Below, in pieces: positions 19,394-35,687 of a DNA stretch of 41,360 bases. Location of the stretch: positions 1 to 41,360 of IMG/VR virus record IMGVR_UViG_3300027736_001811, one strand, 5' to 3'. Origin of the DNA: a virus. A program made the translations under genes and the position numbers. How positions within the stretch are numbered: the stretch's first letter is position 1; each line of letters starts with the position of its first letter. The notes beneath the pieces were generated by a model. That model was given only the letters and a program-made list of their open reading frames with translations, had not been told where the DNA came from and made no database searches.

Positions 19394-19783
19394 ATGGCAT
19401 ACTCAGAAAAAGTAATTGATCATTACGAAAATCCACGCAACGTAGGCAGATTTGATATAGATGATACAGTGGGTACCGGGATGGTCGGCGCACCGGCATG
19501 CGGCGATGTGATGAAATTACAAATCAAAGTTGATCCTATAACCGGCATAATCCAAGATGCTCGTTTCAAAACGTATGGCTGCGGGTCGGCTATTGCATCA
19601 TCATCGTTAATAACTGAGCTTGTTAAGGGAATGACGCTTGACCAAGCAGGAAGCATTAAAAATTCAGAGATAGCAGAAGAACTTGCGTTACCGCCGGTTA
19701 AAATACATTGTAGCATATTGGCTGAGGATGCTATCAAAGCAGCAGTGAATGATTATCGTAATAAACATTTAATGGTAGTATGA
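19394..19783 (+). CDS. iscU: Iron-sulfur cluster scaffold protein IscU
   Basis: The scaffold on which IscS and partners build [2Fe-2S] clusters. All ligands are present: C36 and D38 (GAPACGD), C63 (YGCGSAIASS) and H105-C106. The chaperone recognition motif LPPVK (residues 99-103), which binds HscA in bacteria, is also intact. Length 129 matches E. coli IscU (128), so the protein is full length and probably able to work with the host Isc system. A strong AGGAG precedes the ATG. No iscS, hscA or ferredoxin gene was seen nearby. Two radical SAM enzymes are encoded downstream and would need Fe-S clusters. Confidence 0.95.
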   Translation: MAYSEKVIDHYENPRNVGRFDIDDTVGTGMVGAPACGDVMKLQIKVDPITGIIQDARFKTYGCGSAIASSSLITELVKGMTLDQAGSIKNSEIAEELALPPVKIHCSILAEDAIKAAVNDYRNKHLMVV

Positions 19784-19967: not shown

Positions 19968-20825
19968 ATGACAAAACGTATATTAGTAATGGGCTTGCCT
20001 GGTTCAGGAAAAACGTATTTTGCTGAAAAATTAAAAAATTATTTAATAAGTCACGGGGATATTATGAAAATTAATCCCGGTAAAATATTAAATGCAACTG
20101 GTATCCCAAATTCAGCGATATGGCAAATCTCAGTAGATTGGTTTAATGCTGATGAAATTCGTAAAAGATTTAACGATTGGGATTTCAGTAAAGAGGGTAG
20201 GATTCGTCAAAGTATACGAATGTTTGATTTTGCAATAAAATGTTCGGGAGATTTTGTAATATGTGATTTTGTAGCGCCATTAGTTGAGATGAGAAATAAT
20301 TTTAAAGCTGATTGGACCATATGGTTAGATACTATTAATAAAGGTAGATTTGAAGATACAAACCAAGCATTTGTTCCACCCAATGTATATGATTTCAGAA
20401 TTCCTGAACAAAATGCAGAGAAATGGGTAGAATTTGTCGGGGAGCATATTTTAGAAAATAGACGTAGACCCACGTTTGATTGGAAAAAAGAAACAGTTCA
20501 ACAACTTGGTAGATGGCAACCATGGCATGAGGGACATCGTGCGTTATTTGATAGATTAATACAACGTACCGGACAAGTTTGTATTATGATTCGTGATTGC
20601 CATGGATGGCAAGAAAGCAATCCGTTTGAAGTTGAAAAAGTTAAAAGTTTCATTCGCCGTGATTTAGATCCATTGTATCAGGGGCAATATGAAATTCAAG
20701 TAGTTCCTAATATCGTGCATATTGGATATGGCCGTGGGGTTGGATATACCATGGAAGAAGAAAAGTTTGATGATTCTATTACAAGTATATCAGGCACTGC
20801 TATTAGGCAGGCTATGGGATTATAA
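19968..20825 (+). CDS. Bifunctional P-loop kinase / nucleotidyltransferase fusion
   Basis: Two enzyme domains are fused. Residues 1-150 form a P-loop kinase resembling adenylylsulfate (APS) kinases: Walker A GLPGSGKT (9-16), then WFNADEIRKRFNDWDFSKEG, like the CysC substrate region. Residues about 180-285 form an HIGH-type nucleotidyltransferase: GRWQPWHEGHRALF corresponds to G-R-F-x-P-x-H-x-G-H, and SISGTAIRQ to the ISSTxIR motif, as in NMN adenylyltransferases and cytidylyltransferases. NadR proteins fuse related domains in the reverse order. The substrate cannot be told; NAD, sulfate or lipid/sugar-head activation are all possible. It is the first gene of the ten-gene run ending at 27296. 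Confidence 0.8.
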   Translation: MTKRILVMGLPGSGKTYFAEKLKNYLISHGDIMKINPGKILNATGIPNSAIWQISVDWFNADEIRKRFNDWDFSKEGRIRQSIRMFDFAIKCSGDFVICDFVAPLVEMRNNFKADWTIWLDTINKGRFEDTNQAFVPPNVYDFRIPEQNAEKWVEFVGEHILENRRRPTFDWKKETVQQLGRWQPWHEGHRALFDRLIQRTGQVCIMIRDCHGWQESNPFEVEKVKSFIRRDLDPLYQGQYEIQVVPNIVHIGYGRGVGYTMEEEKFDDSITSISGTAIRQAMGL

Positions 20826-20837
20826 TTTAACAACCTT

Positions 20838-21386
20838 ATGCTAGTTAATAAAGATTCATTTTCTAATGGACAAATAGCAAGTAAAATATGGTTATGTCAA
20901 GAATTAGAAAAATTAAAATGGTCTTCTAATCTTACGTGGATATATGGTGGTTGGTATGGAATGACTGCATTCTTACTACTAAGTCGAGAAAATTTTCTAG
21001 TAAAAAGAATAGAAAGTTACGATAGTGATCCAGAATGTGAACCTATTGCTGACCTGATTCATAATAATTGGGTACATTTTCATCCTTTTAAATTTAAAGC
21101 ATATACAAAAAATTGTAATGCGCTAATTCCAAATCAAACTGACTTAATAATTAATACCGCAACAGAACATTTTGATAGTATGGAATGGTTTAATAATATT
21201 CCCGCCGGACACCGAGTTATCTTGCAAGGAAATAACATGACACATGATGATCACTGTGTACATAGTGATTCCTTATTAAGTTTTAAAAATCATTATCCGT
21301 TAACGGAATATTATTATATTGGTAATAAAGATTTTGAGTACAATGATTGGAAATTTACTAGATATATGGTAATGGGAACTAAATAG
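20838..21386 (+). CDS. Class I SAM methyltransferase-like protein
   Basis: The 182-residue protein has the look of a Rossmann methyltransferase. A first strand and turn, LTWIYGGWYGMTAFLLLSR, stands where the SAM-binding glycine loop is expected. An acidic strand end follows (IESYDSDPECEPIADL), then LIINTATEHFDSMEWFNNIP resembling motif IV onward. The glycine motif is degenerate (YGGWYG). Similar proteins in aquatic phages are annotated as methyltransferases, as far as I recall. The substrate is unknown. The start has no clear ribosome site. Confidence 0.6.
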   Translation: MLVNKDSFSNGQIASKIWLCQELEKLKWSSNLTWIYGGWYGMTAFLLLSRENFLVKRIESYDSDPECEPIADLIHNNWVHFHPFKFKAYTKNCNALIPNQTDLIINTATEHFDSMEWFNNIPAGHRVILQGNNMTHDDHCVHSDSLLSFKNHYPLTEYYYIGNKDFEYNDWKFTRYMVMGTK

Positions 21387-21389
21387 AAT

Positions 21390-22235
21390 ATGTACTCTTT
21401 TTATGAAATTACCTTATGCACGCCGGATATTAAAAAACTAACTTATAAAGTACACACACATAAACCTGCCCAAACATGGGCTAAATTAATAAATAATTGC
21501 AATGTAACCCATCTACGAAAAAGTTTAAATCCAATTCGTGCTATTAATAATATAGAAGAGAAAATTAAGGAGTTAATAACGTTAATTGAAAAAATGAATA
21601 CGTGGATACCAACTAAAATAATTACGTTTAGCAATGATGATACAATAGCAAACAATTTAAACCGTTTACATATTCATTTTCCAGATCTGGAAAAATCAGA
21701 AACAGACACCTCTAGATTAGACCAACTATCAGCATATAATGATTTAATACATGAATTAGAAACATTGAATGTCGCAAAAAAATTTAATAAAAATTTTAGT
21801 TATATTTTGGTATGCCCGGATATTCATAATGAATTGAATGAGTTAATATCCATTGAAGATTTTAAATATTTTACTCCAAATAGAAATATTGGAGATTTGC
21901 TGTTGCATTATTCTCATGTAGGAAGACATCCACTTGAATTATATTTAAATAATGATGTCAATTGTCCTGACAATCAAATTTTACCACAATATGAAATATC
22001 ACCATTCCATACCTTGCGATTTTCTAAATTTACAATAGACCAGACGAAATTTACTAATTTTTATTATACTAGTAAACTCAAGTGGCCATACAAAATAGAA
22101 GACCCCAGATTAGCCGTAGGATATATCCCGGCAGGAACATTAATAAAAATAAACGATGTTGAAGTTGAAAATAACGCAATGTGTCAAGAATTAGTTATGC
22201 CGGATACAAAAATAATAAGTTGGAAAATATATTAA
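21390..22235 (+). CDS. Hypothetical protein in enzyme cluster, 281 aa
   Basis: Not recognised. The protein is a Lys/Asn/Ile-rich alpha/beta chain, with a helical N-terminal half (NNIEEKIKELITLIEKMN) and a strand-rich C-terminal half containing HVGRHPLELYLNNDVNCPDNQ and ISPFHTLRFSKFTIDQ. The His/Asp pattern of the second half could suit a small dioxygenase or binding domain, but no family signature is complete. It sits three bases after the methyltransferase-like gene and ends one base before a radical SAM gene, so it belongs to the same operon. Confidence 0.65.
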   Translation: MYSFYEITLCTPDIKKLTYKVHTHKPAQTWAKLINNCNVTHLRKSLNPIRAINNIEEKIKELITLIEKMNTWIPTKIITFSNDDTIANNLNRLHIHFPDLEKSETDTSRLDQLSAYNDLIHELETLNVAKKFNKNFSYILVCPDIHNELNELISIEDFKYFTPNRNIGDLLLHYSHVGRHPLELYLNNDVNCPDNQILPQYEISPFHTLRFSKFTIDQTKFTNFYYTSKLKWPYKIEDPRLAVGYIPAGTLIKINDVEVENNAMCQELVMPDTKIISWKIY

Positions 22236-22236
22236 T

Positions 22237-23781
22237 ATGATAAATATACCTACTAATAATTTTAATGCCATACTAGTTACAGATACATCAGATTATCCAA
22301 ATTGGCAAAGAGGCTACGGGGCACACAGATTAGCCACACATCTTAGAGTAAACGGATATTCGGTATTAGTAATTGATTTTTCTTCAGCACTTAATATTAA
22401 TATTTGGGAAGAAATTATTAAAGTTTCAATAGGTCCTGATACAAAATTTGTGGGTTTTAGTACCTGCTGGTGGCCTTATAGAAAAAAAACAGGCAATAAA
22501 CTGCCTATACCTGGAAGTGTAAGAAAACTTGCCGATGTAAAATCAGTGGATGACCCCACGATAGAACAATATAACACACTAACTGACCTGGCATATATAG
22601 GTCAAGCAAAAATTTATATTGATATTGTTAAAAAATACAATTCAAAAACTAAAATACTTTTAGGGGGTGTTAAAATAGACTGGTATACAGATTTTCCAGC
22701 TGATCATGTCATGTCAGGTTACAGTGAGGTACAAATATTAGATTTTTTACAACAACCAAACCGTATTTGGAATAAGTTAATTAATCATGATACCTCTGCA
22801 GAAAGTAAAAATTGGGGATGGGTAGAAAGTTTTACCGGCTACACAAAATATGATCAAATTCGTAGCAATGAATTAATGACCCTGGAAGTAGCCCGCGGGT
22901 GTCGATTTGCTTGTTTATTTTGTGCCTGGCCACTAATAGGAAAAAAAGACATAGCAAAATATATTAAAGGATCAGATGCACTTTATAAAGAACTATTAGA
23001 CAATTACACAAAATGGGGAATTACTGATTATTGGATAGCAGACGACACTCTAAATGATTCGACTGAAAAATTACAGTATATGGCAGCAGTTGTAAAATTA
23101 TTACCGTTTAAGCCGAAGTTTAGATGTTATCTACGGATTGATTTAATAGTAACGCATCCGGAACAAGCACAATTATTATTAGATATTGGTATAGTGGGTG
23201 TATTTGTTGGCATTGAAACTTTTCATCCTAAAAGTGCTAAGGTAATCGGTAAGGGTATGGATTCTGAAAAACGTAAACAAGCTTTACGCTATTTACAAAA
23301 CGTATGGGAAGACCAGATTAGAATTGAGTGCGGATACATTATTGGACTACCGCACGAATCCTATACAGATATGCGTGATAGTCATGCTTGGTTTATGCAA
23401 TCAGACTGTCCGGTACACTGTGTATATTATTTTCCATTAATAATAACTCCCCCTGCACTTTACCCAAATAAACCGTCAAGTGAACTAGAGAAATCATATG
23501 AAAAATACGGATATACCATTTCAGAGGAAAATATGCATGCGGGAAAGTGGACTAAAAATGATGATTCTGACATAAAAAGTTTTGAACAATCATTTGAAAT
23601 AATGCAAGAGCTAAATGCTGAAATAGCAACAAAAAACACAATGTATAGAAAGCCAAGTTTTCAATGGTCACGACACCAAGCTGATCCGTATATTATTACA
23701 GACCCACTAGTGGAGTACTTCCCGCAGTTGTTAACAATGTTAGAAGCTGATGCTAAAATTATTAAAGTAAATACTATATGA
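22237..23781 (+). CDS. Radical SAM enzyme with possible B12-binding-type N-terminal domain
   Basis: A 514-residue radical SAM protein. The cluster motif is CX3CX2C in ARGCRFACLFCAWP (about residue 220), which binds the [4Fe-4S] that splits SAM. Later barrel segments are visible: ITDYWIADDTLNDS, VGVFVGIETFHPKS and IECGYIIGLPHES. The first 180 residues (YGAHRLATHLRVNGYSVLVIDF, TKFVGFSTCWWP, KILLGGVKID) follow the Rossmann pattern of B12-binding radical SAM proteins, although no DxHxxG cobalamin motif is visible. Such enzymes methylate or rearrange unactivated carbons. The substrate is unknown. It overlaps the next gene by ATGA. Confidence 0.85.
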   Translation: MINIPTNNFNAILVTDTSDYPNWQRGYGAHRLATHLRVNGYSVLVIDFSSALNINIWEEIIKVSIGPDTKFVGFSTCWWPYRKKTGNKLPIPGSVRKLADVKSVDDPTIEQYNTLTDLAYIGQAKIYIDIVKKYNSKTKILLGGVKIDWYTDFPADHVMSGYSEVQILDFLQQPNRIWNKLINHDTSAESKNWGWVESFTGYTKYDQIRSNELMTLEVARGCRFACLFCAWPLIGKKDIAKYIKGSDALYKELLDNYTKWGITDYWIADDTLNDSTEKLQYMAAVVKLLPFKPKFRCYLRIDLIVTHPEQAQLLLDIGIVGVFVGIETFHPKSAKVIGKGMDSEKRKQALRYLQNVWEDQIRIECGYIIGLPHESYTDMRDSHAWFMQSDCPVHCVYYFPLIITPPALYPNKPSSELEKSYEKYGYTISEENMHAGKWTKNDDSDIKSFEQSFEIMQELNAEIATKNTMYRKPSFQWSRHQADPYIITDPLVEYFPQLLTMLEADAKIIKVNTI

Positions 23782-24263
23782 TTAATATTATTGAGACATA
23801 TCCTGTTACTGAATTATTAGACTGCTATTTCAAAATTGAAAAAAATATTGTATGGACATGTTACGGTGATAATAAGAAACAAGCCGGATTGCAATTTAAA
23901 GAAGGTGAAGATCCATGGACTAGTGCTGTGGGGAGGAGTAACGGCGGCGAACTTGAATATACCAATTTAAATTTATTTTTTAAAGATACTCTTTTTGAAG
24001 AGGTAATCAATCAATATACATTAAAAAGAACAAGACTGGTGTGGCTTAGCCCCATGGCCTGTTACAGTATGCATAAAGACACCACTCCGCGCATTCATAT
24101 ACCCATGATTACCAATCCAGAATGTTATTTTGTCTTTAAGACCGGCATTATTCAACATATGCCTGTGGGCTCAGTATATTGGACTAACACTGTTAACCTA
24201 CATACATTTATGAATTGCTCTACTGAATCTAGATTACACTTAATTGGTGTGGTTTCGAAATAA
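23778..24263 (+). CDS. Aspartyl/asparaginyl beta-hydroxylase-like 2OG-Fe(II) dioxygenase
   Basis: The 161-residue protein contains the double-stranded beta-helix pattern of Asp/Asn hydroxylases: SPMACYSMHKD with a possible metal His99 (and Asp101), TPRIHIPM with R105-H107, GSVYWTNTVNLHTF with distal His142, and R152 to bind 2-oxoglutarate. Members hydroxylate amino acid side chains or small molecules using Fe(II), O2 and 2-oxoglutarate. The sequence is slightly short for the family but includes the whole core. TAATG overlap with the next gene shows tight operon coupling. A similar but separate dioxygenase is encoded at 31900. Confidence 0.75.
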   Translation: MINIIETYPVTELLDCYFKIEKNIVWTCYGDNKKQAGLQFKEGEDPWTSAVGRSNGGELEYTNLNLFFKDTLFEEVINQYTLKRTRLVWLSPMACYSMHKDTTPRIHIPMITNPECYFVFKTGIIQHMPVGSVYWTNTVNLHTFMNCSTESRLHLIGVVSK

Positions 24264-25042
24264 TGGAATTTAATAATATAACAACTGCTGCAATTGCAAT
24301 AGAGATGCAATCAGTAGATATAGTTTCATTTATTAAATTTAAAGAAAAATTTAATAAATGGATTCATTCATCTATACAATTAGTAACGGGATTGCCTAAA
24401 TCATATTATATTGTATCAGGGGTCACTGATGCATTTAATCAAATGTATGGAATTTATAATAAGATAGGAGTATTTGATGGAGAATACGGCTATCATTCAT
24501 TAGTTATACAAAATCGTGTTACTTTAAATTTAGATGAGGCCGATGCAATAGTAATAAGTCATCCATTTAGTGCTGACGGAATGAGTTCACATGAAAAAAT
24601 TAAAATTGCAGATTCTTATAATAAACCCATATTCGTTGACTGTGCTTTTTTTGGAGTATGTCACGATATAAATTTTGATTTTTCTAGTTATAAAAATATA
24701 CACAGTGTTTGCTTTTCATTATCTAAATCGTTTGGTACAGGATTACATAGAGTTGGATTATTGTATACCGTAGACCCGTATCCGGTTACCGTGTATTCAC
24801 AGTGGCAGTACCCACTAGTGGCCTGTGCCGAGCATCATTATACATTATTAGATACAATATCGCCGGACTCAATGATAAAAAAATATAAAGATGCTCAATT
24901 GGCTGTTTGTCAAGAATTTAACCTCATACCGTCTAATACTATATTATTTGGATTAGATTACTCTGAAAAATATGTAAGTTTTAAACGGGGACCAGTGAAT
25001 CGTTTATGCATAAGTAAACTACTAAAACAAAATAATGAATAA
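24263..25042 (+). CDS. Compact PLP-dependent, aminotransferase-fold protein
   Basis: Resembles fold-type I PLP enzymes. D126 in IFVDCAFFG is placed to bind the pyridine nitrogen. K155 in FSLSKSFGTGLHRVG is placed as the Schiff-base lysine, followed by the usual Gly-rich turn. The large domain core seems present (VSGVTDAFNQMYG near residue 52, AIVISHPFSADG near 96), but at 259 residues it is much shorter than typical aminotransferases (about 380-400). The C-terminal small domain is therefore reduced. It might be a lyase, a transaminase for an unusual substrate, or a non-catalytic relative. It overlaps the next gene by eight bases. Confidence 0.7.
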   Translation: MEFNNITTAAIAIEMQSVDIVSFIKFKEKFNKWIHSSIQLVTGLPKSYYIVSGVTDAFNQMYGIYNKIGVFDGEYGYHSLVIQNRVTLNLDEADAIVISHPFSADGMSSHEKIKIADSYNKPIFVDCAFFGVCHDINFDFSSYKNIHSVCFSLSKSFGTGLHRVGLLYTVDPYPVTVYSQWQYPLVACAEHHYTLLDTISPDSMIKKYKDAQLAVCQEFNLIPSNTILFGLDYSEKYVSFKRGPVNRLCISKLLKQNNE

Positions 25043-26009
25043 TGTATATCCAATTCACGTTGAAAGATCAGTCCCTCAACCATTTAAAGTAATTAACTGG
25101 AAACTACATAATGTATGCAATTACTCATGCAGTTTTTGCGGTAAAGAAAATAATAGTGGAAATGAACGGTGGTTTACATTAGAAAAGTACAAATCAATTG
25201 TTGATAAAATTGCTGAGGCATGCGCAGGAACTCCATTTTATATGGTTTATACTGGAGGCGAACCTACATTATATCCTGAACTAATGGAATTATTACAGCA
25301 TTCAAAAAGTAAAGGTGCATGGAATATATTAGTAAGCAATGGTTCTAGAACAATTCGTTGGTGGAAAGAATTGGCAAAAATTGATAATATACTTACTCGG
25401 CTATCATTGTCATATCATAATGAGCAAACAACCGATTATAATAATATTGCTGATATAATGAATTTATTCCTTAATTCTGAAACCGAAACAGTGTGTGAAA
25501 TTACTCATACTAAAAATAATATTTCTCAGGCAATTGAAGCATATAATTATTTAATGAACAATACAGGAGGAATACTTGATATTAAAGGAATGAATATAAA
25601 TGAATATGATATATATGATTTATACTCAGCCGACGAACTATCTATCATTAAACACGCTAGTTATACATATGGAAAACTAGTAAATATTAAAAACAAATCC
25701 ACTATCCCGAATAATCTACGATTAGCGCCAGGAATATTAGTTACCAATAATTTAGGAATCACAACAGATATGAATGTTCAATTACTTATGAAAAATAAAT
25801 TGAATAAATTTTTAGGATGGGAATGTCAGGTGGGCAAAGATTTTATAGACATTAATTTTCAGACCATTAGCAGATCGGTATGTGGAGTAACCGGCCCGAG
25901 TGGCCACGTTGACGACCTTAGGTATAATTTTTCTAATAAATCAGTTATTTGTACTAAGGTTACATGCGAGTGCTTTCATGATCTTTTAACTACTAAAACA
26001 AAACAATGA
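25035..26009 (+). CDS. Radical SAM enzyme with C-terminal cysteine cluster
   Basis: A 324-residue radical SAM protein with CX3CX2C in NVCNYSCSFCGKE (about residues 28-40), then the family motif TGGEPTLYPEL (about 74) and strands NILVSNGS and RLSLSYHNEQ. The C-terminal 70 residues hold five further cysteines (WECQVG, SVCGVTG, VICTKVTCECFHD), possibly an auxiliary Fe-S cluster of SPASM/twitch type. Such enzymes often modify peptides or small molecules. Together with the other radical SAM gene it makes a pair of Fe-S-dependent catalysts in one operon, which fits a phage that also carries iscU. Confidence 0.85.
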   Translation: MNNVYPIHVERSVPQPFKVINWKLHNVCNYSCSFCGKENNSGNERWFTLEKYKSIVDKIAEACAGTPFYMVYTGGEPTLYPELMELLQHSKSKGAWNILVSNGSRTIRWWKELAKIDNILTRLSLSYHNEQTTDYNNIADIMNLFLNSETETVCEITHTKNNISQAIEAYNYLMNNTGGILDIKGMNINEYDIYDLYSADELSIIKHASYTYGKLVNIKNKSTIPNNLRLAPGILVTNNLGITTDMNVQLLMKNKLNKFLGWECQVGKDFIDINFQTISRSVCGVTGPSGHVDDLRYNFSNKSVICTKVTCECFHDLLTTKTKQ

Positions 26010-26743
26010 AATACCCGTTTTTAACAAATAATGAATTGATATTGGTCGACTATTTGCCCGGCGGATCCGGTCAACTTCTCATGCGTATTTGGTCAGAGTT
26101 AGATATTAAATTGGATTATACTAATACTAAAATTTTATCTGATATTCCTATAAATTCTCATAAATCTTCTAGAGAGATAGCATATGAAATAATCGTACCC
26201 AAAAGAATCACAAATTGGTTTTTAGACCGGTGTGAACCAACTGATATTAATGACTATGTTCAATTTTTTGAATTTTTAGGAACACATCTATTAGCCGGGC
26301 GACAACGATGGAATTGGGGAGACAACAAATTAAAATTTTATGAAAATTCTAAATATGAAATGAAAGATTATAGAATATTATACGGGATTCATTCTTGGGA
26401 TAAAACGATTCCTTTTAAAGAGATGCAAAATATTGGATATAAAATTCGTTGCATTTCACTCATCCCAAAAACAGAAATAGGAAATTTATATCAAAGTACC
26501 AGGTGTAAAGTATGTTATCCGGCAGATGATTTACTTTGGAGAACTGCATTAGGTAAATTTAACAATAAACCTGTAACAGACTATTTTGATTTTTATACAT
26601 TATTATCAAACAAAGACACCGCAGCAATATTGTCTTGGTTATCTAATCAACTTAAAGAAGATTTTAATGTAAATAAAATATCATATGTGACAGATATTTT
26701 AGAAACGTATTACACAGAGATTGTTGATAATTTATATGTTTGA
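26006..26743 (+). CDS. Hypothetical protein, possible P-loop/sulfotransferase-like fold, 245 aa
   Basis: Function not established. The N-terminus ELILVDYLPGGSGQLLMRIW has a hydrophobic strand, a Gly-rich loop and a helix, like the nucleotide-binding start of sulfotransferase-like proteins. The same style of start is seen in the genes at 37272 and 40686. The rest is Trp/Tyr-rich and helical, with a Cys pair (RCKVCYP) near residue 168. It overlaps both neighbours (ATGA upstream, eight bases downstream), so it is an integral member of the cluster. Confidence 0.6.
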   Translation: MKYPFLTNNELILVDYLPGGSGQLLMRIWSELDIKLDYTNTKILSDIPINSHKSSREIAYEIIVPKRITNWFLDRCEPTDINDYVQFFEFLGTHLLAGRQRWNWGDNKLKFYENSKYEMKDYRILYGIHSWDKTIPFKEMQNIGYKIRCISLIPKTEIGNLYQSTRCKVCYPADDLLWRTALGKFNNKPVTDYFDFYTLLSNKDTAAILSWLSNQLKEDFNVNKISYVTDILETYYTEIVDNLYV

Positions 26744-27296
26744 ACGATATCATTCAATCTATGGGTCTAGGGGAAGTTTAGCCGAAGTATGGATAGACAA
26801 AGACGCAAAATTGGTTAAAAAATATTATAAAATTAACGGCAATACTATTCAAAATCGTCCACCGGTCCATAATACCATAGAAGAAATTGACAAACTTTTT
26901 AAAAATGAAATATATTGGACTACGAAATTAAAATCTAATTTAGTAGTAAACACATATGAACATGGCAAATTAGACGATCAGCCGGGATATTATATTTTGC
27001 AAGAATGGCCGGGCCCAGACTTATTACAATATCCCCGCGAGGATTTAAATATTGTCTTTCCTAATATAACAGAACAAATAGAACATATGTTTAGATTTTT
27101 TAAACAGCATAATATGTATAAATTTAATAATGCCATGTGTAATTTGACTGGAAAAAACGGTCAACTTATGTGTTTTGATTTTAAATATGCGGCTACTAGG
27201 ACCGTAACCAATATTGAAATAGAAAGACATAGTATAAAAGAATGGATCAGTAAGATTGATCCTGAGTTAATTTTTAAACTAGAATCACTATTATAA
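26736..27296 (+). CDS. Small protein-kinase-fold protein, possibly catalytically unusual
   Basis: Start chosen at ATG 26736, which overlaps the preceding gene by eight bases. The order of motifs suggests a minimal kinase fold: Gly-loop-like YGSRGSLAEVW (residues 8-18), a lysine strand LVKKYY, a Glu helix (FKNEIYWTTKL), a hinge YILQEWPGPDL, then HNMYKFNNAMCNL and LMCFDFKYA in the places of the HRD catalytic loop and DFG. The catalytic Asp of HRD appears replaced by Met, while the following Lys and Asn and the DFG-type Asp are kept. It could be an atypical kinase or a pseudokinase. Only 186 residues, so the C-lobe is short. Confidence 0.55.
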   Translation: MFERYHSIYGSRGSLAEVWIDKDAKLVKKYYKINGNTIQNRPPVHNTIEEIDKLFKNEIYWTTKLKSNLVVNTYEHGKLDDQPGYYILQEWPGPDLLQYPREDLNIVFPNITEQIEHMFRFFKQHNMYKFNNAMCNLTGKNGQLMCFDFKYAATRTVTNIEIERHSIKEWISKIDPELIFKLESLL

Positions 27297-27342: not shown

Positions 27343-28305
27343 TTAATTACTCCACCCGACTTCTTTGATAATAGGAATCCATTTAATTCTCAATTCCATC
27401 ATGCTTGCTTCAAATCCCTTAGGATCTTGCTCTTTGGGTTCTGTAAACATTAAATTGTCTTTGATAAATTGTTGACCGGGCGTGCTGTTAATAGCATTTC
27501 TAAACTTTACAACATACCAATCAATAATTTCCTTAGGTGTTCCTTTAGGAAATATAATACCCCACGCGGCATAAACATTCATGCCAGGAACATAGTCTTT
27601 CATCAAAGGAACGTCTTTTAATCCTTCTAGTCTATATTCACTGGTCAGTGCAATAATTTTAACTTTGCCGGATTTAACCAACACATTAGCAACTGCCACT
27701 GGAATAATACCAAACTCTACGTGTCCGCCTGCAACATCTTGGCCTGCTTGTGCAGGACCTTTATATGGTATCGTTTTAATTAAAGATTTATTTCCCTTGA
27801 TATTATACATCATGTATTCATATGCAAGTTTATGTGCCCCGCTACCGGCGGCAATGCTAATAGGATTAGTAGTATTCTTCATACGATCTATAAATTCTTT
27901 GGGAGTATTAGTTAAACTACTTTCGTGTGCAATAATAGCTAAGGGACTTTTTGCTAATGTTAATCCGTATTCAAAGTCGTCTAGTGTATACTTTTTATTT
28001 TCTGGATTAGAATAATCGGCTGTGACCCATATGCCTTGGTGACTGGCAATATAGATATGATGACCATCATTGGGTAATTTTATAAAATGGTTCATACCGA
28101 TTGTACCATCCCCTCCGGGTTTATTCTCTACAATAAAATTAATTTTAGGATTGGCTTTTTCAATTAAACTGCTAAATCCTCTAAAACTTAATTCATTGCC
28201 AGATCCTGGCGCAAACCCAATAACTGCTGTAACCGGTTTTGTTGGTTCCCAAGCATGTGCTGAGAATGATAATAATGCTAACGCTAAAAATTTAACTAAC
28301 TTCAT
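27343..28305 (-). CDS. Tripartite tricarboxylate transporter substrate-binding protein (TctC/Bug family)
   Basis: A periplasmic binding protein with signal peptide MKLVKFLALALLSFSAHA. It matches the TctC/Bug family throughout: PVTAVIGFAPGSGNE near the mature N-terminus, FIVENKPGGDGTIGMNHF, IPYKGPAQAGQDVAGGHVEFGI, IIALTSEYRLEGLKDVPLM and WGIIFPKGTP. Length 320 is normal. In bacteria these capture carboxylic acids such as citrate, nicotinate or glutamate for a TctAB membrane channel. No tctA or tctB gene is present, so the product would have to work with host permeases. The family is especially abundant in Burkholderiales, a hint to the host. It is first in a minus-strand group only in map order; transcription comes from the right. 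Confidence 0.93.
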   Translation of the reverse strand: MKLVKFLALALLSFSAHAWEPTKPVTAVIGFAPGSGNELSFRGFSSLIEKANPKINFIVENKPGGDGTIGMNHFIKLPNDGHHIYIASHQGIWVTADYSNPENKKYTLDDFEYGLTLAKSPLAIIAHESSLTNTPKEFIDRMKNTTNPISIAAGSGAHKLAYEYMMYNIKGNKSLIKTIPYKGPAQAGQDVAGGHVEFGIIPVAVANVLVKSGKVKIIALTSEYRLEGLKDVPLMKDYVPGMNVYAAWGIIFPKGTPKEIIDWYVVKFRNAINSTPGQQFIKDNLMFTEPKEQDPKGFEASMMELRIKWIPIIKEVGWSN

Positions 28306-30295: not shown

Positions 30296-31063
30296 TTACT
30301 TAATTAAGGGTTGAGAAACAGATGAATCAAGCAGTTTAATTAACCGTCCACCTATATCAATTTCCCAAAATTTTTCTCCAAAAGAATACCTATTAGGTGC
30401 GGCATGATGATTGTTATGCCATCCTTCCCCCCACGTAAAAACTCCTAGCAAAAATGAGTTTTTGCTATTATCTTTGGTATCATGGTTTCTATAACCAAAT
30501 ATATGTCCTAGCGTATTAATAAAACTACCTGCATTCCATAATATGGCTGCCGGCGCCAGATACATACAGACCAACAACATTGGATCTATCACGAATAATG
30601 ATGCCGCTGTTGCAATATGTATATAAAAATAATTTTTATGTAAAAATACTTGGAATTTATTCTTTGTCAAATCTGGTACATATCTTAATTTGGCTTGTTC
30701 AAACATACTTAGCCATTGAATTCTAATAAATGATTTGAGCAAGGGACTATGCGGATCAGCTTCTGTATCTGTATATCTATGATGTTCACGATGAACCGCG
30801 ACCCAGGCTAGAGGACTGCCAGTTAACCCGTAGAAACCACATAGTGTTCCTAAATAATAAAACCATTTAGGTGAGTTATAAGACTTATGCGAGAGTAGTC
30901 TATGAAAAGTCATGGTCATGCCCAAACATCCTGTTATAAAATAAACTATACCAGTAACCACCCACATTGTATAAGACCCATTAAATATTTGATAGATTAA
31001 TCCCGCGTGGGCTAAAACTTGAAAAGTAAATAGTAAAAGATTGGGTGCTCGAAGTATCATCAT
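30296..31063 (-). CDS. Membrane fatty acid desaturase (acyl-CoA/lipid delta-9 type)
   Basis: An integral membrane di-iron desaturase of 255 residues. The three histidine boxes are intact: HRLLSH (54-59), HREHH (91-95) and HNNHH (216-220). Hydrophobic helices flank them (LLLFTFQVLAHAGLIYQIF, WVVTGIVYFITGC, FYYLGTLCGFYGL and a further pair after residue 145). The family introduces a cis double bond into acyl chains, increasing membrane fluidity. Electron donors would come from the host. A minus-strand TATAAATA (31072-31065) lies directly before the two adjacent ATGs. The protein is a little shorter than host desaturases but the core is complete. Confidence 0.93.
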   Translation of the reverse strand: MMILRAPNLLLFTFQVLAHAGLIYQIFNGSYTMWVVTGIVYFITGCLGMTMTFHRLLSHKSYNSPKWFYYLGTLCGFYGLTGSPLAWVAVHREHHRYTDTEADPHSPLLKSFIRIQWLSMFEQAKLRYVPDLTKNKFQVFLHKNYFYIHIATAASLFVIDPMLLVCMYLAPAAILWNAGSFINTLGHIFGYRNHDTKDNSKNSFLLGVFTWGEGWHNNHHAAPNRYSFGEKFWEIDIGGRLIKLLDSSVSQPLIK

Positions 31064-31899: not shown

Positions 31900-32643
31900 A
31901 TGATAAATCCATATATAATAAATGTCGGGAATATTTTTCCCGGCATCACTAATATGTTTGTAGACATATACAACCAAAAAGATTTTTGTAAAAAAAAATC
32001 CTCATACAATGATATAGCTAGTCAACTGTTTGCCTATGCATTGCAGGGGAAGGAATTTACTCCTAATGTTAATCTGTCAGATGTAATTCTGGAAGATATG
32101 GTCCGGCGAATTCAAGATAATGTAAAAGAATTTACCAAAGTTGATGGAGTAATTACCACCTCAATATGGGGAGGTCCTGCTCGGCATGCAATATTTCTAC
32201 AAAATGAACTTTCTAACAATATGCACCAACAAATGTTAGACCTATTACCTGATGAAATGCAACAACATAAGATCACATTTGGGATTCAAATTGCAGGTCC
32301 CGGTCAATTTATTATGCCACATCAGGATCATGAAAGAACTTCTACTTTATTTTATTTGTTAACAGTTCCGGATTCCGAGACTAGATTTTATAAACAAAAA
32401 AAAGACTTTAAAATCCATCATTTTTTTAGAACTGTTAGCATACATGATGTTGAATTAGATCATTCGGAAACAATTCAACAAGGGTCGTGGTATACATTTA
32501 ATAATATGTCATATCATTCAGTACATGCATTAGATCAATCAAAACCGATTAATCGTGTATCATTTGTGATAGAGTTTATAGACTTGCCATTTGACAGATT
32601 AGTAAAATTGATTGAAGATTTGAAAGTTCAAAATAAAATTTGA
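31900..32643 (+). CDS. 2OG-Fe(II) dioxygenase-like protein, 247 aa
   Basis: The C-terminal half has the double-stranded beta-helix signature: FGIQIAGPGQFIMPHQDHERTS with metal pair H141-x-D143, then GSWYTFNNMSYHSVHA with a distal His (206 or 209), and NRVSFVIEF with R219 to hold 2-oxoglutarate. The N-terminal 125 residues are helical and specific. It probably hydroxylates a peptide or small molecule. Two such dioxygenases in the window (also at 23778) suggest related chemistry. No clear Shine-Dalgarno sequence precedes ATG 31900; ATG at codon 19 is an alternative. The gene is followed directly by the tRNA promoter. Confidence 0.75.
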   Translation: MINPYIINVGNIFPGITNMFVDIYNQKDFCKKKSSYNDIASQLFAYALQGKEFTPNVNLSDVILEDMVRRIQDNVKEFTKVDGVITTSIWGGPARHAIFLQNELSNNMHQQMLDLLPDEMQQHKITFGIQIAGPGQFIMPHQDHERTSTLFYLLTVPDSETRFYKQKKDFKIHHFFRTVSIHDVELDHSETIQQGSWYTFNNMSYHSVHALDQSKPINRVSFVIEFIDLPFDRLVKLIEDLKVQNKI

Positions 32644-32700: not shown

Positions 32701-32777
32701 GCCCTGGTGACGGAATAGGTATACGTACTGGTCTTAGAAACCAGGTTCTGGGAGTTCAAGTCTCCCCTAGGGCACCA
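32701..32777 (+). tRNA. tRNA-Leu (TAG)
   Basis: Acceptor GCCCTGG with CTAGGGC, anticodon arm CTGGT-CTTAGAA-ACCAG, T-arm GGGAG/CTCCC, encoded CCA. Unusual for leucine: the variable region is only five bases (GTTCT) instead of a long arm, although the D-arm looks leucine-like. Confidence 0.85.
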
Positions 32778-32782
32778 ATAAT

Positions 32783-32857
32783 GCGACCGTAGCTCAGAGG
32801 AAGAGCAAGCGACTCATAATCGCTGGGTCGAGGTATCGTAATCCTCCGGTCGCACCA
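32783..32857 (+). tRNA. tRNA with CAT anticodon, probably tRNA-Ile2
   Basis: Acceptor GCGACCG/CGGTCGC and encoded CCA. The anticodon arm GCGACTCATAATCGCT plus GGTCG is almost identical to that of E. coli tRNA-Ile2 from memory, whose C34 becomes lysidine to read AUA. The AT-rich phage uses many AUA codons. A methionine tRNA cannot be excluded. Confidence 0.85.
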
Positions 32858-32866
32858 AATTTTGAA

Positions 32867-32896
32867 GTTGTTGTAAAAATACAACAACAAATTTTT
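32867..32896 (+). terminator. Hairpin and T-run between the first two tRNAs and the main tRNA promoters
   Basis: GTTGTTGTA (32867-32875) and TACAACAAC (32880-32888) form a perfect 9-bp stem with loop AAAA, then AAATTTTT. It probably ends the first small tRNA unit just before the next promoter. Confidence 0.6.
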
Positions 32897-32923
32897 GACA
32901 ACAAATGGTGTTTAGTATATAAT
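32895..32923 (+). promoter_or_regulatory. tRNA operon promoter P1 (sigma70 consensus)
   Basis: TTGACA (32895-32900), 17-base spacer, TATAAT (32918-32923): a perfect consensus match. It lies 95 bp before a second perfect promoter. Confidence 0.88.
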
Positions 32924-32989
32924 ACATACTTAGATTGATTGAAGAGTTCTTGGAAACGGTAGCATAATGCTAGTAGACACAAAAAGTTC

Positions 32990-33018
32990 TTGACAATTAA
33001 TCTAAACGGTGTTATAAT
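32990..33018 (+). promoter_or_regulatory. tRNA operon promoter P2 (sigma70 consensus)
   Basis: TTGACA (32990-32995), 17-base spacer, TATAAT (33013-33018), again perfect. Tandem P1/P2 promoters about 100 bp apart are typical of bacterial rRNA operons. Confidence 0.88.
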
Positions 33019-33027
33019 AGACACATA

Positions 33028-33082
33028 GCAACAAACGATAGAGTCAGTTGCAACAAGGTTCTTTAAAAATTTAATTGTGTAA
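33028..33082 (+). promoter_or_regulatory. rRNA-leader-like boxB-boxA-boxC antitermination region
   Basis: A hairpin GCAAC/GTTGC (33028-33032 with 33047-33051) is followed by GGTTCTTTAAAAATTTAA and then TTGTGTAA. The middle part resembles the boxA (CTCTTTAA-type) of rRNA leaders, and is especially close to the GTTCTTTAAAAATTTA sequence that I recall before betaproteobacterial 16S genes. The order hairpin-boxA-boxC is the same as in rrn operons. Confidence 0.5.
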
Positions 33083-33166
33083 TTTCTTCGCTAAGACAAC
33101 ACCAAGCACGATTTTGTTGCAAGGTGATAACAGTCCGCAATCTTGTGAAAGAAAGCGTAGCGAGAA
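33083..33166 (+). other. Leader segment, weakly structured
   Basis: No tRNA is found here. CGCTA (33088-33092) can pair with TAGCG (33158-33162), closing a region with internal CAAC/GTTG pairing. It joins the antitermination-like leader to element A. Confidence 0.3.
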
Positions 33167-33274
33167 GTTATATTGAAACACATTACGGCTGAGGTCCAGA
33201 GATAACTTCATGCTAAGCCGTAACAGGATATAGAAGCAGACCCAAACCTGTTGTATAGTGTGTTTCAATATAAC
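33167..33274 (+). ncRNA. Stem-closed structured element A
   Basis: GTTATATTGAAACACA (33167-33182) and TGTGTTTCAATATAAC (33259-33274) form a perfect 16-bp closing stem. Inside are an 8-bp stem TTACGGCT/AGCCGTAA (33183-33190, 33216-33223) and a stem ACAGG/CCTGT (33223-33227, 33247-33251), so the RNA would fold as a three-way junction. No tRNA is present. The AGAAGTTATAT flanking the left arm is repeated after the right arm. Confidence 0.65.
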
Positions 33275-33294
33275 AAAGAAGTTATATGTTTTTT

Positions 33295-33369
33295 ACTGCT
33301 ATCGACTATCGGTTAGGTCAGGATACTTTCAATTTCCAGAGCGGGGTTCGACTCCCCGTAGCAGTACCA
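33295..33369 (+). tRNA. tRNA-Glu (TTC)
   Basis: Acceptor ACTGCTA/TAGCAGT, anticodon arm GGATA-CTTTCAA-TTTCC (one T-T mismatch), T-arm CGGGG/CCCCG, encoded CCA. The D-arm TCGACTATCGG resembles that of bacterial tRNA-Glu. Confidence 0.85.
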
Positions 33370-33458
33370 TATAAAAACATACTTACCAATCGCCCTCTTA
33401 GTAAAGGGAGATAACGACTAAGCGTTGAAGACAGGTTTAAAAGTATGTTTCTATATGG
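33367..33458 (+). ncRNA. Stem-closed structured element B, pseudoknot core
   Basis: CCATATAAAAACATACTT (33367-33384) pairs with AAGTATGTTTCTATATGG (33441-33458), 18 positions with one mismatch. The first three bases are the CCA of tRNA-Glu. The core can form an H-type pseudoknot: CCCT/AGGG enclose CTTAGT, which pairs with ACTAAG just downstream. Confidence 0.65.
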
Positions 33459-33585
33459 TTGTTCTAAAGGCCGAGCCAGGACGCATTAAATAGACCTTGA
33501 AGGTCAGCCCGCGATTGTGGATGCATGTCAAAGGGTAAGGCGGAGAACATTAAATGAAGACGGCCGCTTCAGCCATTCTTATTTT
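33459..33585 (+). other. Structured spacer before tRNA-Asp, no recognised gene
   Basis: The segment is GC-richer than average, with possible pairings TGTTCT/AGAACA (33460-33465, 33544-33549), GGCCG/CGGCC (33469-33473, 33561-33565; crossing the first) and a hairpin GACCT-TGA-AGGTC. It may be a further structured RNA outside the stem-closed family. Confidence 0.35.
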
Positions 33586-33660
33586 GGTGCGTTCATATAA
33601 CGGTCATTATCTCGGATTGTCTATCCGAAGACGGGAGTTCGACTCTCCCACGCATCGCCA
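33586..33660 (+). tRNA. tRNA-Asp (GTC)
   Basis: Acceptor GGTGCGT/ACGCATC, anticodon arm TCGGA-TTGTCTA-TCCGA, T-arm GGGAG/CTCCC, discriminator G as expected for Asp, encoded CCA. Confidence 0.92.
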
Positions 33661-33680
33661 AGTTAATGCGACAAAGGATT

Positions 33681-33698
33681 GTTCCCTGTACAGGGAAC
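33681..33698. repeat. Perfect 18-bp palindrome GTTCCCTGTACAGGGAAC
   Basis: An exact self-complementary sequence immediately before the left arm of element C. It could be an RNA hairpin or an operator-like protein site. It does not match a LexA box, which needs eight bases between CTGT and ACAG. Confidence 0.7.
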
Positions 33699-33809
33699 CA
33701 TATTAAAATATATTTCAGGTTGGGTTAGATTCGCGGTCTAACTATTTGGGTCTGTAGACAGGTTTTGATACCATGTCGTGACTAAGATACGGAGTATATT
33801 TTAATATGG
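33698..33809 (+). ncRNA. Stem-closed structured element C
   Basis: CCATATTAAAATATATTTC (33698-33716) and GGAGTATATTTTAATATGG (33791-33809) form a 19-bp stem, 15 Watson-Crick at the outer end then two G-U pairs within the last four. The core has a hairpin GTTAGA-TTCGCGG-TCTAAC. The last two bases of the right arm are the first GG of tRNA-Tyr. Confidence 0.65.
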
Positions 33810-33893
33810 ATGTGTAGGAAAACTGGTAACCCCAGAAGACTGTAAATCTTCCGCCTCACGGCTCTGTTGGTTCGACTCCAACCGCATCCACCA
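33808..33893 (+). tRNA. tRNA-Tyr (GTA)
   Basis: Acceptor GGATGTG/CGCATCC, anticodon arm GAAGA-CTGTAAA-TCTTC, long variable arm, T-arm GTTGG/CCAAC, encoded CCA. Confidence 0.93.
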
Positions 33894-33900
33894 AGTTTTT

Positions 33901-33974
33901 GGGCTGCTAGTATAATGGGATTACACTGGCCTTGCAAGTCAGTTATTGGGGTTCGATTCCCCAGCGGTCCACCA
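33901..33974 (+). tRNA. tRNA-Ala (TGC)
   Basis: Acceptor GGGCTGC/GCGGTCC, including G-U pairs, anticodon arm CTGGC-CTTGCAA-GTCAG, T-arm TGGGG/CCCCA, encoded CCA. Confidence 0.9.
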
Positions 33975-34203
33975 AGTTTTGTTAGAGTGTTAGCAAGAGA
34001 AAGTCACGCTATCTAGGTTTGTTCGAACAACTGAAATAGTAGAAGGCAATGGGTTCGACTCCCACCTGGGCACGTAGTGTCCATGGGCAGAAGGTTGCAA
34101 GCTGGACAAGTATCCCAAGTAACTTACCGAATCCCGTCCGGACTTGTTAATTCGGGTGAATGGTTCCTATAATGTGGTGGAACAACTTTAACAAATTCAA
34201 TTT
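33975..34203 (+). other. 229-base spacer with hairpins, no recognised gene
   Basis: No tRNA could be folded here. It contains palindrome TTGTTCGAACAA, a T-arm-like hairpin TGGG-TTCGACT-CCCA (34050-34064), a hairpin GGGCAC-GTA-GTGTCC next to it, and GTTCC/GGAAC. The isolated T-arm suggests a decayed tRNA or another tRNA-like RNA. No group I intron core or tmRNA tag frame was seen. Confidence 0.4.
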
Positions 34204-34205
34204 TC

Positions 34206-34314
34206 GGAGACTGAAACTTATCTTTGGCGTGTAGGCTTGCCATAAAGCGCAAAGATAAGCGGATAAAGTGGACGACACAAGAGGCAGAACCTCCCTTTTG
34301 TGTAGGCTGTCTCC
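34206..34314 (+). ncRNA. Three-way-junction RNA before tRNA-Gly
   Basis: GGAGAC (34206-34211) pairs with GTCTCC (34309-34314). Inside are a 9-bp stem CTTATCTTT/AAAGATAAG (34217-34225, 34251-34259) and a stem ACACAA/TTGTGT (34275-34280, 34298-34303) capped by GAGG/CCTC. The layout is like elements A and D, but without the CCATA-type outer arm. Confidence 0.55.
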
Positions 34315-34324
34315 ATCTTTTCAT

Positions 34325-34398
34325 GCGGGGTTCGTATAGTGGTAATACCTTAGCCTTCCAAGCTAAAGCGAGGAGTTCGATTCTCCTACCCCGCTCCA
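34325..34398 (+). tRNA. tRNA-Gly (TCC)
   Basis: Acceptor GCGGGGT/ACCCCGC, anticodon arm TTAGC-CTTCCAA-GCTAA, T-arm AGGAG/CTCCT, encoded CCA. Confidence 0.94.
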
Positions 34399-34413
34399 GA
34401 TTTTAAGTTTTAA

Positions 34414-34501
34414 GGATAGTTGGCCGAGTGGTTAAGGCAACGGTTTGCTAAACCGTCGCTCCGAAAGGGGCGCATAGGTTCGAATCCTATACTATCCGCC
34501 A
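34414..34501 (+). tRNA. tRNA-Ser (GCT)
   Basis: Acceptor GGATAGT/ACTATCC, anticodon arm ACGGT-TTGCTAA-ACCGT, long variable arm with a GCTCC/GGGGC stem, encoded GCCA. Confidence 0.95.
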
Positions 34502-34508
34502 AGTTTAT

Positions 34509-34583
34509 TCCCTAGTAGCTCAGCGGTAGAGTAGTTGGCTGTTAACCAATTGGTCCGTGGTTCGATCCCACGCTGGGGAGCCA
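34509..34583 (+). tRNA. tRNA-Asn (GTT)
   Basis: Acceptor TCCCTAG/CTGGGGA, anticodon arm GTTGG-CTGTTAA-CCAAT, T-arm CGTGG/CCACG, encoded CCA. Confidence 0.93.
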
Positions 34584-34590
34584 ATAATTT

Positions 34591-34664
34591 GCCTCGGTAG
34601 TTTAATGGTAGAACGGCATCCTTACACGGTGCATACGGGAGTTCGATTCTCCAACGAGGTACCA
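34591..34664 (+). tRNA. tRNA-Val (TAC)
   Basis: Acceptor GCCTCGG with ACGAGGT (G-U first, mismatch last), anticodon arm GCATC-CTTACAC-GGTGC, encoded CCA, which also begins the left arm of element D. Confidence 0.85.
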
Positions 34665-34780
34665 TAGATAAGCACAGTCAACGGCAATCATAACGATACC
34701 TGGCAACTGGACGCAGGGGCTATCGCAAAGAGTAGGGCACTACCGCCGTAAAGTCAGGAAAAGAATGTGTTTTTCTATGG
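34662..34780 (+). ncRNA. Stem-closed structured element D
   Basis: CCATAGATAAGCACA (34662-34676) pairs with TGTGTTTTTCTATGG (34766-34780), one mismatch and one G-U. The core is a three-way junction: ACGGC/GCCGT close it, with nested CGATA/TATCG plus CCTG/CAGG in one branch and a small hairpin GTAG-GGCA-CTAC in the other. The left arm begins with the CCA of tRNA-Val. Confidence 0.68.
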
Positions 34781-34803
34781 TTATATATTATGATAAATAT
34801 TAT

Positions 34804-34882
34804 TGCGGAGTAGGGGAGTCTAGCCGTCCCCGGAAGTCTCATAAGCTTCAGATCGCAGGTGCGAATCCTGCCTCCGCATCCA
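34804..34882 (+). tRNA. tRNA-Met (CAT), second CAT tRNA
   Basis: Acceptor TGCGGAG/CTCCGCA, anticodon arm GAAGT-CTCATAA-GCTTC, T-arm GCAGG/CCTGC, encoded CCA. The D-arm is initiator-like in look, but the anticodon stem lacks the three G-C pairs of initiators, and the first acceptor pair is formed. Confidence 0.85.
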
Positions 34883-34887
34883 TTCTT

Positions 34888-34967
34888 TCTCCGGTTCGCC
34901 TAATCTGATCATGGCACCTCGTTTGGGACGAGGAATAATGTGAGTTTAAATCCCACACTGGAGACCA
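34888..34967 (+). tRNA. tRNA-Pro (TGG)
   Basis: Acceptor TCTCCGG/CTGGAGA, anticodon arm CCTCG-TTTGGGA-CGAGG, encoded CCA. The T-loop reads TTTAAAT, with T in place of the usual C. Confidence 0.9.
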
Positions 34968-34974
34968 ACAATAA

Positions 34975-35050
34975 GCCCTTATAGCTCATTTGGTAGAGCA
35001 ACCGCCTTGTAAGCGGTAGGTGGTCAGTTCGAATCCGACTGAGGGCACCA
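34975..35050 (+). tRNA. tRNA-Thr (TGT)
   Basis: Acceptor GCCCTTA/TGAGGGC, anticodon arm ACCGC-CTTGTAA-GCGGT, encoded CCA. Confidence 0.94.
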
Positions 35051-35056
35051 AACAAT

Positions 35057-35133
35057 GCGTCTGTAATTCAATTGGATAGAAAGTCAGTCTTCGAAACTGA
35101 AGGTTGGGAGTTCGAATCTCTCCAGACGCACCA
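35057..35133 (+). tRNA. tRNA-Arg (TCG)
   Basis: Acceptor GCGTCTG/CAGACGC, anticodon arm TCAGT-CTTCGAA-ACTGA, encoded CCA, which begins the left arm of element E. Confidence 0.93.
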
Positions 35134-35330: not shown

Positions 35331-35342
35331 ATAAAGAATAAT

Positions 35343-35434: not shown

Positions 35435-35439
35435 AAAAT

Positions 35440-35513: not shown

Positions 35514-35520
35514 AAGTTAT

Positions 35521-35597: not shown

Positions 35598-35604
35598 ATA
35601 TCAT

Positions 35605-35680: not shown

Positions 35681-35687
35681 AACAAAT

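Follow-up and report, generated by a model that had tools for sequence, protein, structure and literature searches.

We describe here a gene cassette in a stretch of virus DNA of 41,360 nucleotides (the window), which corresponds to positions 1 to 41,360 of the IMG/VR virus record IMGVR_UViG_3300027736_001811. The window is a linear 41.4-kb fragment from a freshwater T4-like phage and carries nrdA and nrdB, a clamp-loader-like open reading frame (ORF), a repeat-rich tail-fibre-like ORF coding for 2523 amino acids (2274-9845), and 28 tRNA genes. The closest cultured counterpart of its NrdB is that of Xanthomonas phage X1 (61%). The cassette extends from 19968 to 27296 and consists of nine genes, designated A to I, all encoded on the + strand (Table 1). 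Neighbouring genes overlap by 1-8 nt or are separated by no more than 12 nt: gaps occur at the junctions A/B (12 nt), B/C (3 nt), and C/D (1 nt), and overlaps at D/E (4 nt), E/F (1 nt), F/G (8 nt), G/H (4 nt), and H/I (8 nt).

Table 1. Genes of the cassette and the adjoining iscU gene
Gene	Position	Strand	Encoded protein
IscU	19394-19783	+	Fe-S scaffold, directly upstream of the cassette; NCBIfam TIGR01999, 207.8 bits (cutoff 192.4)
A	19968-20825	+	fusion of P-loop kinase and HxGH nucleotidyltransferase; phrog_10255, E-value 1e-41; APS_kinase, 22.7 bits (cutoff 21.1)
B	20838-21386	+	methyltransferase-like, 182 aa, no Pfam family; weak profile match to a spermidine-synthase-type fold (E-value 0.007)
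C	21390-22235	+	281-aa family without known assignment
D	22237-23781	+	514-aa B12-type (class B architecture) radical S-adenosylmethionine (SAM) enzyme; PF04055, E-value 3e-14
E	23778-24263	+	2-oxoglutarate (2OG)/Fe(II) hydroxylase, Asp_Arg_Hydrox family; PF05118, 24.0 bits (cutoff 22.6)
F	24263-25042	+	259-aa miniature fold-type-I pyridoxal phosphate (PLP) aminotransferase
G	25035-26009	+	324-aa radical SAM enzyme; PF04055, E-value 1e-12; C-terminal cysteines, SPASM/twitch-like
H	26006-26743	+	245-aa protein with N-terminal glycine-rich loop
I	26736-27296 (start 26721 less likely)	+	protein-kinase-like fold judged from motifs, with Asn in place of the catalytic Asp

A first-pass annotation of the window, made without database searches, had read this region as a ten-gene enzyme cassette. 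Its ORF positions and its tight or overlapping spacing agree with the coordinates and junctions given here, and its calls of two radical SAM enzymes, an Asp/Asn-hydroxylase-like dioxygenase, a kinase-nucleotidyltransferase fusion, and a small PLP-fold protein are borne out (Table 1). Its gene count is not, as nine genes were found; a tenth gene, coding for a Methyltransf_24 protein, follows I in two relatives (L002 and L008; locus numbers with the prefix L refer to homologous loci) and is not present in the window. With 31.7% G+C, the block has a lower G+C content than the window (36.3%). Promoter-like sites within the block equal the shuffled mean in number, with no clear excess. Nine terminator-like sites were found in the block compared to 4.6 expected, which is no clear signal either; those on the + strand are limited to one each in A, D, and I.

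Genes C to I are real genes, because they are under purifying selection when compared to their counterparts in L008 and L003 (ratio of nonsynonymous to synonymous substitution rates, dN/dS, 0.12-0.25); for B, dN/dS is 0.14 versus L008. The order C-D-E-F-G-H-I is intact in three relatives, L002 (97-100% identity) as well as L008 and L003 (73-91%). The L003 block is located between sugar genes and a tRNA array, and the genes which flank the block in the window (TTT receptor, 78%; s191, 73%; MT2, 84%) form a separate cluster about 30 kb away. Because the L003 block stands apart from these flanking genes, C-I holds together as a single unit across two contexts. We delimit the natural unit as C-I together with B; A is a neighbour with a distribution of its own.

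The gene families are also recurrently linked at larger evolutionary distance. A profile scan with G alone retained 80 loci, which were reduced to 42 by dereplication at 80% G identity. Among these, E is encoded in 20, B in 19, F in 9, D in 6, and C in 5; 17 of the loci also encode a PP-loop ATPase, and twitch radical SAM proteins were counted in 23 and 26. The order F - PP-loop ATPase - twitch radical SAM (T1) - C - G recurs, with T2 and B on the opposite strand and with 23-30% identity to G from the window. Overlapping D and E genes with F adjacent occur in L101, L108, L111, L115, and L119. A scan with E alone yielded 27 loci. One of these (L158) is arranged as IscU ... E-I / H-F-G, with 53-65% identity for E, G, H, and I and just 25% for F; another (L162) is arranged as IscU ... 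E-F-I / H at 53-65% identity, F included. In addition, L154 carries E, I, a distant F, and A, and IscU, E, and B are found in L157 and L169-L172. In the E- or G-seeded scans, the other families are thus found nearby, rearranged, at about 23-65% identity. Taken together, the two scans indicate that all nine families re-associate, in rearranged form, in one hotspot after iscU; this hypervariable hotspot, which houses the module, comes after both nrdAB and iscU.

The first-pass annotation had proposed that the genes cooperate in a biosynthesis or modification pathway, a proposal to be given up if they occur independently of each other in relatives and share no order. Independent occurrence is indeed seen, with D often alone and with F, B, and E in other combinations, but shared orders exist as well (C-D-E-F-G-H-I, E-F-I/H, D-E next to F, and F - PP-loop - T1 - C - G). 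With C-I intact in three relatives and two contexts, and with partner genes clustered in the E- and G-seeded scans, we consider the existence of a co-functioning module highly probable. When 50,697 cultured-phage records, a collection that is not unbiased for aquatic phages, were searched by tblastn, there were no matches for B, C, D, H, and I, one match for F, and four for G, the latter confined to the radical SAM core.

Folds and active-site residues are established for D, E, and F. An AlphaFold2 model of D (predicted local distance difference test score, pLDDT, 86; built on 28 sequences) was aligned with MgmA (Z 20.6; root-mean-square deviation, rmsd, 3.9; 350 aligned residues), OxsB (20.3; 3.5; 395), AprD4 (20.0; 3.7; 376), TsrM (19.7; 3.7; 406), and CysS (Z 19.7). 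Residues 8-485 of the model align, which covers both the N-terminal B12-binding-type Rossmann domain and the radical SAM barrel. D shares this two-domain fold with the class B cobalamin radical SAM enzymes TsrM, OxsB, MgmA, and AprD4 along almost the entire protein (Z about 20) but only 14-17% sequence identity. According to the model, D has the architecture of a class B (B12-dependent) radical SAM enzyme; cobalamin binding and methyl transfer are predicted at most. AprD4 is an example of a class B fold which can work without cobalamin chemistry. The cysteines of the CxxxCxxC cluster motif (C222, C226, C229) are invariant in 28 sequences. Assignment to the PhpK P-methyltransferase family was rejected (TIGR04479, partial match with 56.7 bits vs. 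a cutoff of 600), as were the named B12 radical SAM subfamilies of NCBIfam, for which every score is far below the cutoff. D is commonly encoded apart from the other cassette families: the first distant scan gave 35 loci, most of which lack the others. In L007, D is located between nrdA and nrdB. Tandem pairs of D-type genes occur in L020, L021, L030, and L032-L036.

For protein E, the best profile match to a solved structure is a 182-aa "beta-hydroxylase" (7v4f, E-value 2e-29), followed by an L-proline cis-4-hydroxylase (8e-7). The former is Cpz10, which catalyzes beta-hydroxylation of an aminoacyl-glycyluridine in caprazamycin biosynthesis (PMC9814697). In E, the facial triad and the 2OG-binding arginine (H99, D101, H142, R152) are invariant in six relatives, and so are H107, T112, H127, and H154. 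The former correspond, by spacing, to Cpz10 residues H115/D117/H160/R170, and the latter to the second-shell residues H123/T128/H144/H172, at matching or near-matching spacing and without a printed alignment. E and its closest solved relative thus have the facial triad, the 2OG-binding arginine, and the second-shell residues in common (PMC9814697). The settings differ, Cpz10 belonging to a nucleoside-antibiotic pathway of Streptomyces and E to a phage cassette with radical SAM genes. To our knowledge, the Cpz10 pathway has no radical SAM partners.

The model of protein F (pLDDT 85) has its best structural matches in a tie between HisC, MalY, and C-S lyases (Z about 17 over about 240 of 259 residues, rmsd about 4). 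Because the structural matches start at target residue 46 or beyond, F lacks the N-terminal arm. In Pfam, F scores 15.6 bits against PF00155 and does not reach the gathering cutoff of 19.7. The Schiff-base lysine (K155), the ring-nitrogen aspartate (D126), and the phosphate-site residues (G53/T55, S152/S154, R163) do not vary among 16 relatives, the most distant of which is 23% identical. On the basis of these invariant residues, F is predicted to be, very probably, an active PLP enzyme. A search with short peptide patterns found no relative of F in cellular genome contigs, and none of D in 84,980 bacterial and archaeal species genomes; since such patterns miss divergent homologues, cellular relatives of both proteins may exist. 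The gene order F-I-B is found in L047 and L048. In two other loci (L045:7293-10783 and L046:987-4475), F is located directly 3' of a family B DNA polymerase gene, apart from other cassette genes.

Protein G is the second radical SAM enzyme of the cassette. Its cysteines C28/C32/C35 as well as C264, C283, C306, C311, and C313 are invariant in five sequences; the C-terminal ones may be of the auxiliary-cluster type, yet Pfam SPASM gives no match. The top-scoring models for its radical SAM core are viperin models (54-58 bits). Assignment as a prokaryotic viperin (pVip) was nevertheless rejected: the likeness is restricted to the radical SAM core (residues 18-141), the score (NF038283, 53.8 bits, residues 18-133) is far below the NCBIfam cutoff of 180, and G differs from pVip by its C-terminal cysteine cluster. 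A defence system was also considered and rejected, as PADLOC gave partial matches to G and D and nothing more.

Several of the homologous loci have sugar genes as neighbours. In L003, C is directly preceded by a pair of genes coding for a GDP_Man_Dehyd/Epimerase protein (PF16363 dehydratase, E-value 3e-54) and a DUF707/glycosyltransferase-like protein. The same pair precedes E alone in L161 and in L163/L164 (99/91% and 91/77% identical). Another copy of F (35%) is encoded in L003, within an island that also contains UDP-glucose dehydrogenase and an epimerase. The nearest relatives of G (L068-L077, 31-47% identity; 45% for G from L068) are encoded after a dTDP-glucose-4,6-dehydratase-like epimerase and a PseC/WecE-like DegT aminotransferase. 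G is thus repeatedly preceded by an aminotransferase gene, with two unrelated aminotransferase families in this role. Within L068-L077, the epimerase is 89-97% and the aminotransferase 72-100% identical; G is present in one to three copies, with 32-60% identity for most pairs (minimum 31%). The G slot is clearly hypervariable, as a variable tailoring step would be.

As these families recur together, often beside sugar genes, the cassette probably builds an unusual building block. We tentatively favour the view that B-I (a core of C-G, plus H and I) is an exchangeable biosynthetic or tailoring module of phages, and that the building block it yields is amino-substituted and hydroxylated and destined for a glycan of the host surface. 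By transamination, F would turn an intermediate with a keto or aldehyde group into an amine, E would hydroxylate, D might carry out a C-methylation or carbon rearrangement through B12/radical chemistry, and G might contribute one more radical step, the order of steps being conjectural. A methylation step may fall to B, and accessory roles such as product binding or hand-over could fall to C, H, and I. IscU would supply Fe-S clusters to the radical SAM enzymes. Incorporation of the product into the host surface glycan would alter the cell surface during infection, presumably to the benefit of the phage. We consider it rather doubtful, though conceivable, that this is an undescribed, virus-evolved small-molecule pathway (B12-type radical SAM, Cpz10-like hydroxylase, miniature aminotransferase, SPASM-like radical SAM enzyme) for a compound new to cells; the further idea that aquatic phages swap this compound like an antigen to recode host surfaces, or use it as an inhibitor, is speculative to the same degree.

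A number of observations weigh against a glycan building block. Neither the block in the window nor the adjoining genes code for a glycosyltransferase or a sugar-nucleotide enzyme, and SPASM-type enzymes often use peptide substrates. D is often solitary near nrdAB, F directly follows DNA polymerase in L045/L046, and F overlaps a desaturase gene in pelagiphage-type (Mosig-type) loci including Mosig EXVC030M. The homologous-locus counts are not fully independent events. The closest solved relative of E works on an aminoacyl-nucleoside and not on a sugar (PMC9814697), and OxsB, like Cpz10, works on nucleosides. Of the products suggested in the first-pass annotation (an unusual amino-acid, nucleotide, or surface-glycan derivative), the surface glycan is tentatively favoured by the gene neighbourhoods, and a nucleoside product is conceivable because the nearest solved relative of E uses an aminoacyl-nucleoside.

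Accordingly, the product might be soluble, a modified amino acid or aminoacyl-nucleoside that acts as antimetabolite, inhibitor, or altered nucleotide, and not a part of a glycan. This would fit the nearest PDB relative of E, Cpz10, with its similar second-shell spacing (PMC9814697), and the second-ranking hydroxylase, which acts on free L-proline; it would also fit the resemblance of D to OxsB and AprD4 from antibiotic pathways of the nucleoside and aminoglycoside types, the nucleotidyltransferase domain in A, and a 353-aa protein akin to a Mosig TauD-type dioxygenase that is encoded directly 5' of D in L004. However, no export, resistance, or peptide-ligase genes were seen in the block, several loci have sugar-gene neighbours, and the match to Cpz10 may merely mirror which small family members have solved structures. 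We regard a soluble product as unlikely. Modification of a protein or peptide, such as a tail fibre or a peptide resembling ribosomally synthesized and post-translationally modified peptides (RiPPs), as in proteusin-type pathways, is somewhat less likely still. Proteusin-type pathways combine B12 radical SAM methyltransferases, a hydroxylase, and a methyltransferase, and peptides are common substrates of SPASM/twitch radical SAM enzymes, class B methyltransferases, and Asp/Asn hydroxylases. MgmA, the top VIA match of D, methylates protein glutamine, and a giant tail-fibre gene is located upstream in the window. Against this, E and G are partnered by sugar genes in several loci, and a RiPP gene cluster was rejected since no free small ORF that could code for a precursor is conserved in or near the block in the window, L008, and L003 (antisense shadows only) and no PqqD/RRE-type (RiPP recognition element) Pfam match was obtained.

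That independent accessory genes have merely been heaped up in one recombination hotspot after iscU, with no common pathway, appears improbable. D, F, B, A, and E do occur alone or in various combinations, and unrelated genes share the hotspot. Yet start-stop junctions overlap, C-I moves between contexts as a unit, and the same families re-associate in distant phages, with E-F, D-E, C-G, and E-I as adjacent pairs. Even less credit is given to phage DNA hypermodification or the supply of modified deoxynucleotides, which we consider very improbable. Radical SAM and PLP enzymes are known from phage DNA hypermodification, nrdA and nrdB flank D in L007, many loci have D in the vicinity of nrdAB, and F follows DNA polymerase in L045/L046; but nrd genes merely border the hotspot in T4-like phages, and no known thymidine or guanine hypermodification gene was recognized among the window genes that were read.

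That hypervariable islands of aquatic T4-like phages can contain radical SAM cassettes is known already (PMC7029224). The host recognition cluster of pelagimyophages resembles the present cassette in that an Asp/Asn beta-hydroxylase is core to those phages; the cassettes are given only generic names there, with no account of the B-I set or of its order (PMC7029224). That cluster is located between VrlC and gp14 together with tail fibres. The island in the window follows nrdAB/iscU, and the window has the giant tail-fibre-like ORF at 2274-9845; VrlC and gp14 were not identified in it, with no check aimed at these borders. A T4-like environmental viral genome has been reported in which 12 radical SAM genes accompany a gene for an Fe-S carrier (PMC5332604). 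In such Fe-S-rich genomes, genes for IscU and A-type carriers (ATC) are phage auxiliary genes, like iscU in the window; the accessible part of that account reads them as Fe-S metabolism and contains no pathway, gene order, or miniature-PLP and hydroxylase partners (PMC5332604). The tail-side island of Mosig EXVC030M is similar: adjoining its tail fibres are an F homologue (29%) and genes of the Asp_Arg_Hydrox, radical SAM, methylase, and acetyltransferase types. It differs in that F is accompanied there by a desaturase, and C, D, H, and I are missing from the annotated stretch. No description of the present gene set was found in the open-licence literature searched. In L026-L031 and L085-L145, large phage islands with conserved gene order were observed on contigs of up to 353 kb; as many as eight radical SAM genes occur in them, along with PP-loop ATPases and 2OG oxygenases.

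Radical-SAM-rich islands of aquatic T4-like phages have been catalogued for years without a function. The present analysis resolves one such island into a compact module that recurs and whose partners are defined (E-F, D-E, C-G, E-I/H). With three enzymes having conserved active sites and with repeated links to sugar-nucleotide and glycosyltransferase genes, the question becomes testable by a construct of seven or eight genes. If the proposed function is correct, phages would make, beyond borrowing, unusual surface-modifying chemistry, and the minimal aminotransferase and the small hydroxylase would be new enzyme tools.

The remaining cassette genes are less well characterized. The B family is represented in 58 viral loci, frequently within the same islands, and E110-H111 and a QxN motif are invariant. 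Relatives of C were found in 17 loci after iteration, several of them directly 5' of a G-type radical SAM gene; none of six members checked has a Pfam family. H has no family match, and its relatives were found solely inside modules; homologues with 54-60% identity adjoin E, F, and I in L158 and L162. Homologues of I (48-58% identity) are located beside E/F/H in L154, L158, and L162. The kinase fold of I is read from motifs: K-x-N-x-A-x-x-N and a subsequent D-F-K are retained in all five aligned sequences, and the HRD-type catalytic Asp was not encountered, each of the five having Asn at this position.

IscU is encoded upstream of E/F/B in L044, L157, L158, L162, and L169-L172 and adjoins D in L004/L005; it is probably a support gene of the cassette. 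Peroxiredoxin/AhpD-like and rubrerythrin-like genes, recognized by eye, are located between or beside IscU and E (L158:8821-9989, L162:7222-8405, L157:10522-10971, L154:5624-6073) and possibly shield oxygen-sensitive radical SAM enzymes.

Gene A was rejected as a pathway member and is retained as a neighbour only, because it is missing from L003 and L008 and is free-living in siphophages. It does occur near E in L154 (73%) and L159 (63%). Homologues of A (window 19968-20825; also L059) are found in unrelated Stenotrophomonas, Clavibacter, and Xanthomonas siphophages, with one copy directly after a NADAR-domain gene. In L154 (4047-5500), A overlaps a gene for a protein with what we read as a sulfotransferase-like loop. 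These neighbours could point to nicotinamide adenine dinucleotide (NAD) or 3'-phosphoadenosine 5'-phosphosulfate (PAPS) chemistry.

Elsewhere in the window, the 28 tRNA genes (32701-36919 and 40564-40639) form a nearly complete set, and L003 has 31 beside its cassette. A fatty-acid desaturase (30296-31063; PF00487, E-value 1e-16) belongs to the family that overlaps F in pelagiphages. A 247-aa protein (31900-32643) is 2OG-oxygenase-like as judged by eye. Two phage-borne periplasmic binding proteins were recognized by sequence, one being TTT-type (Bug) receptor-like (27343-28305) and the other PstS-like (38811-39806).

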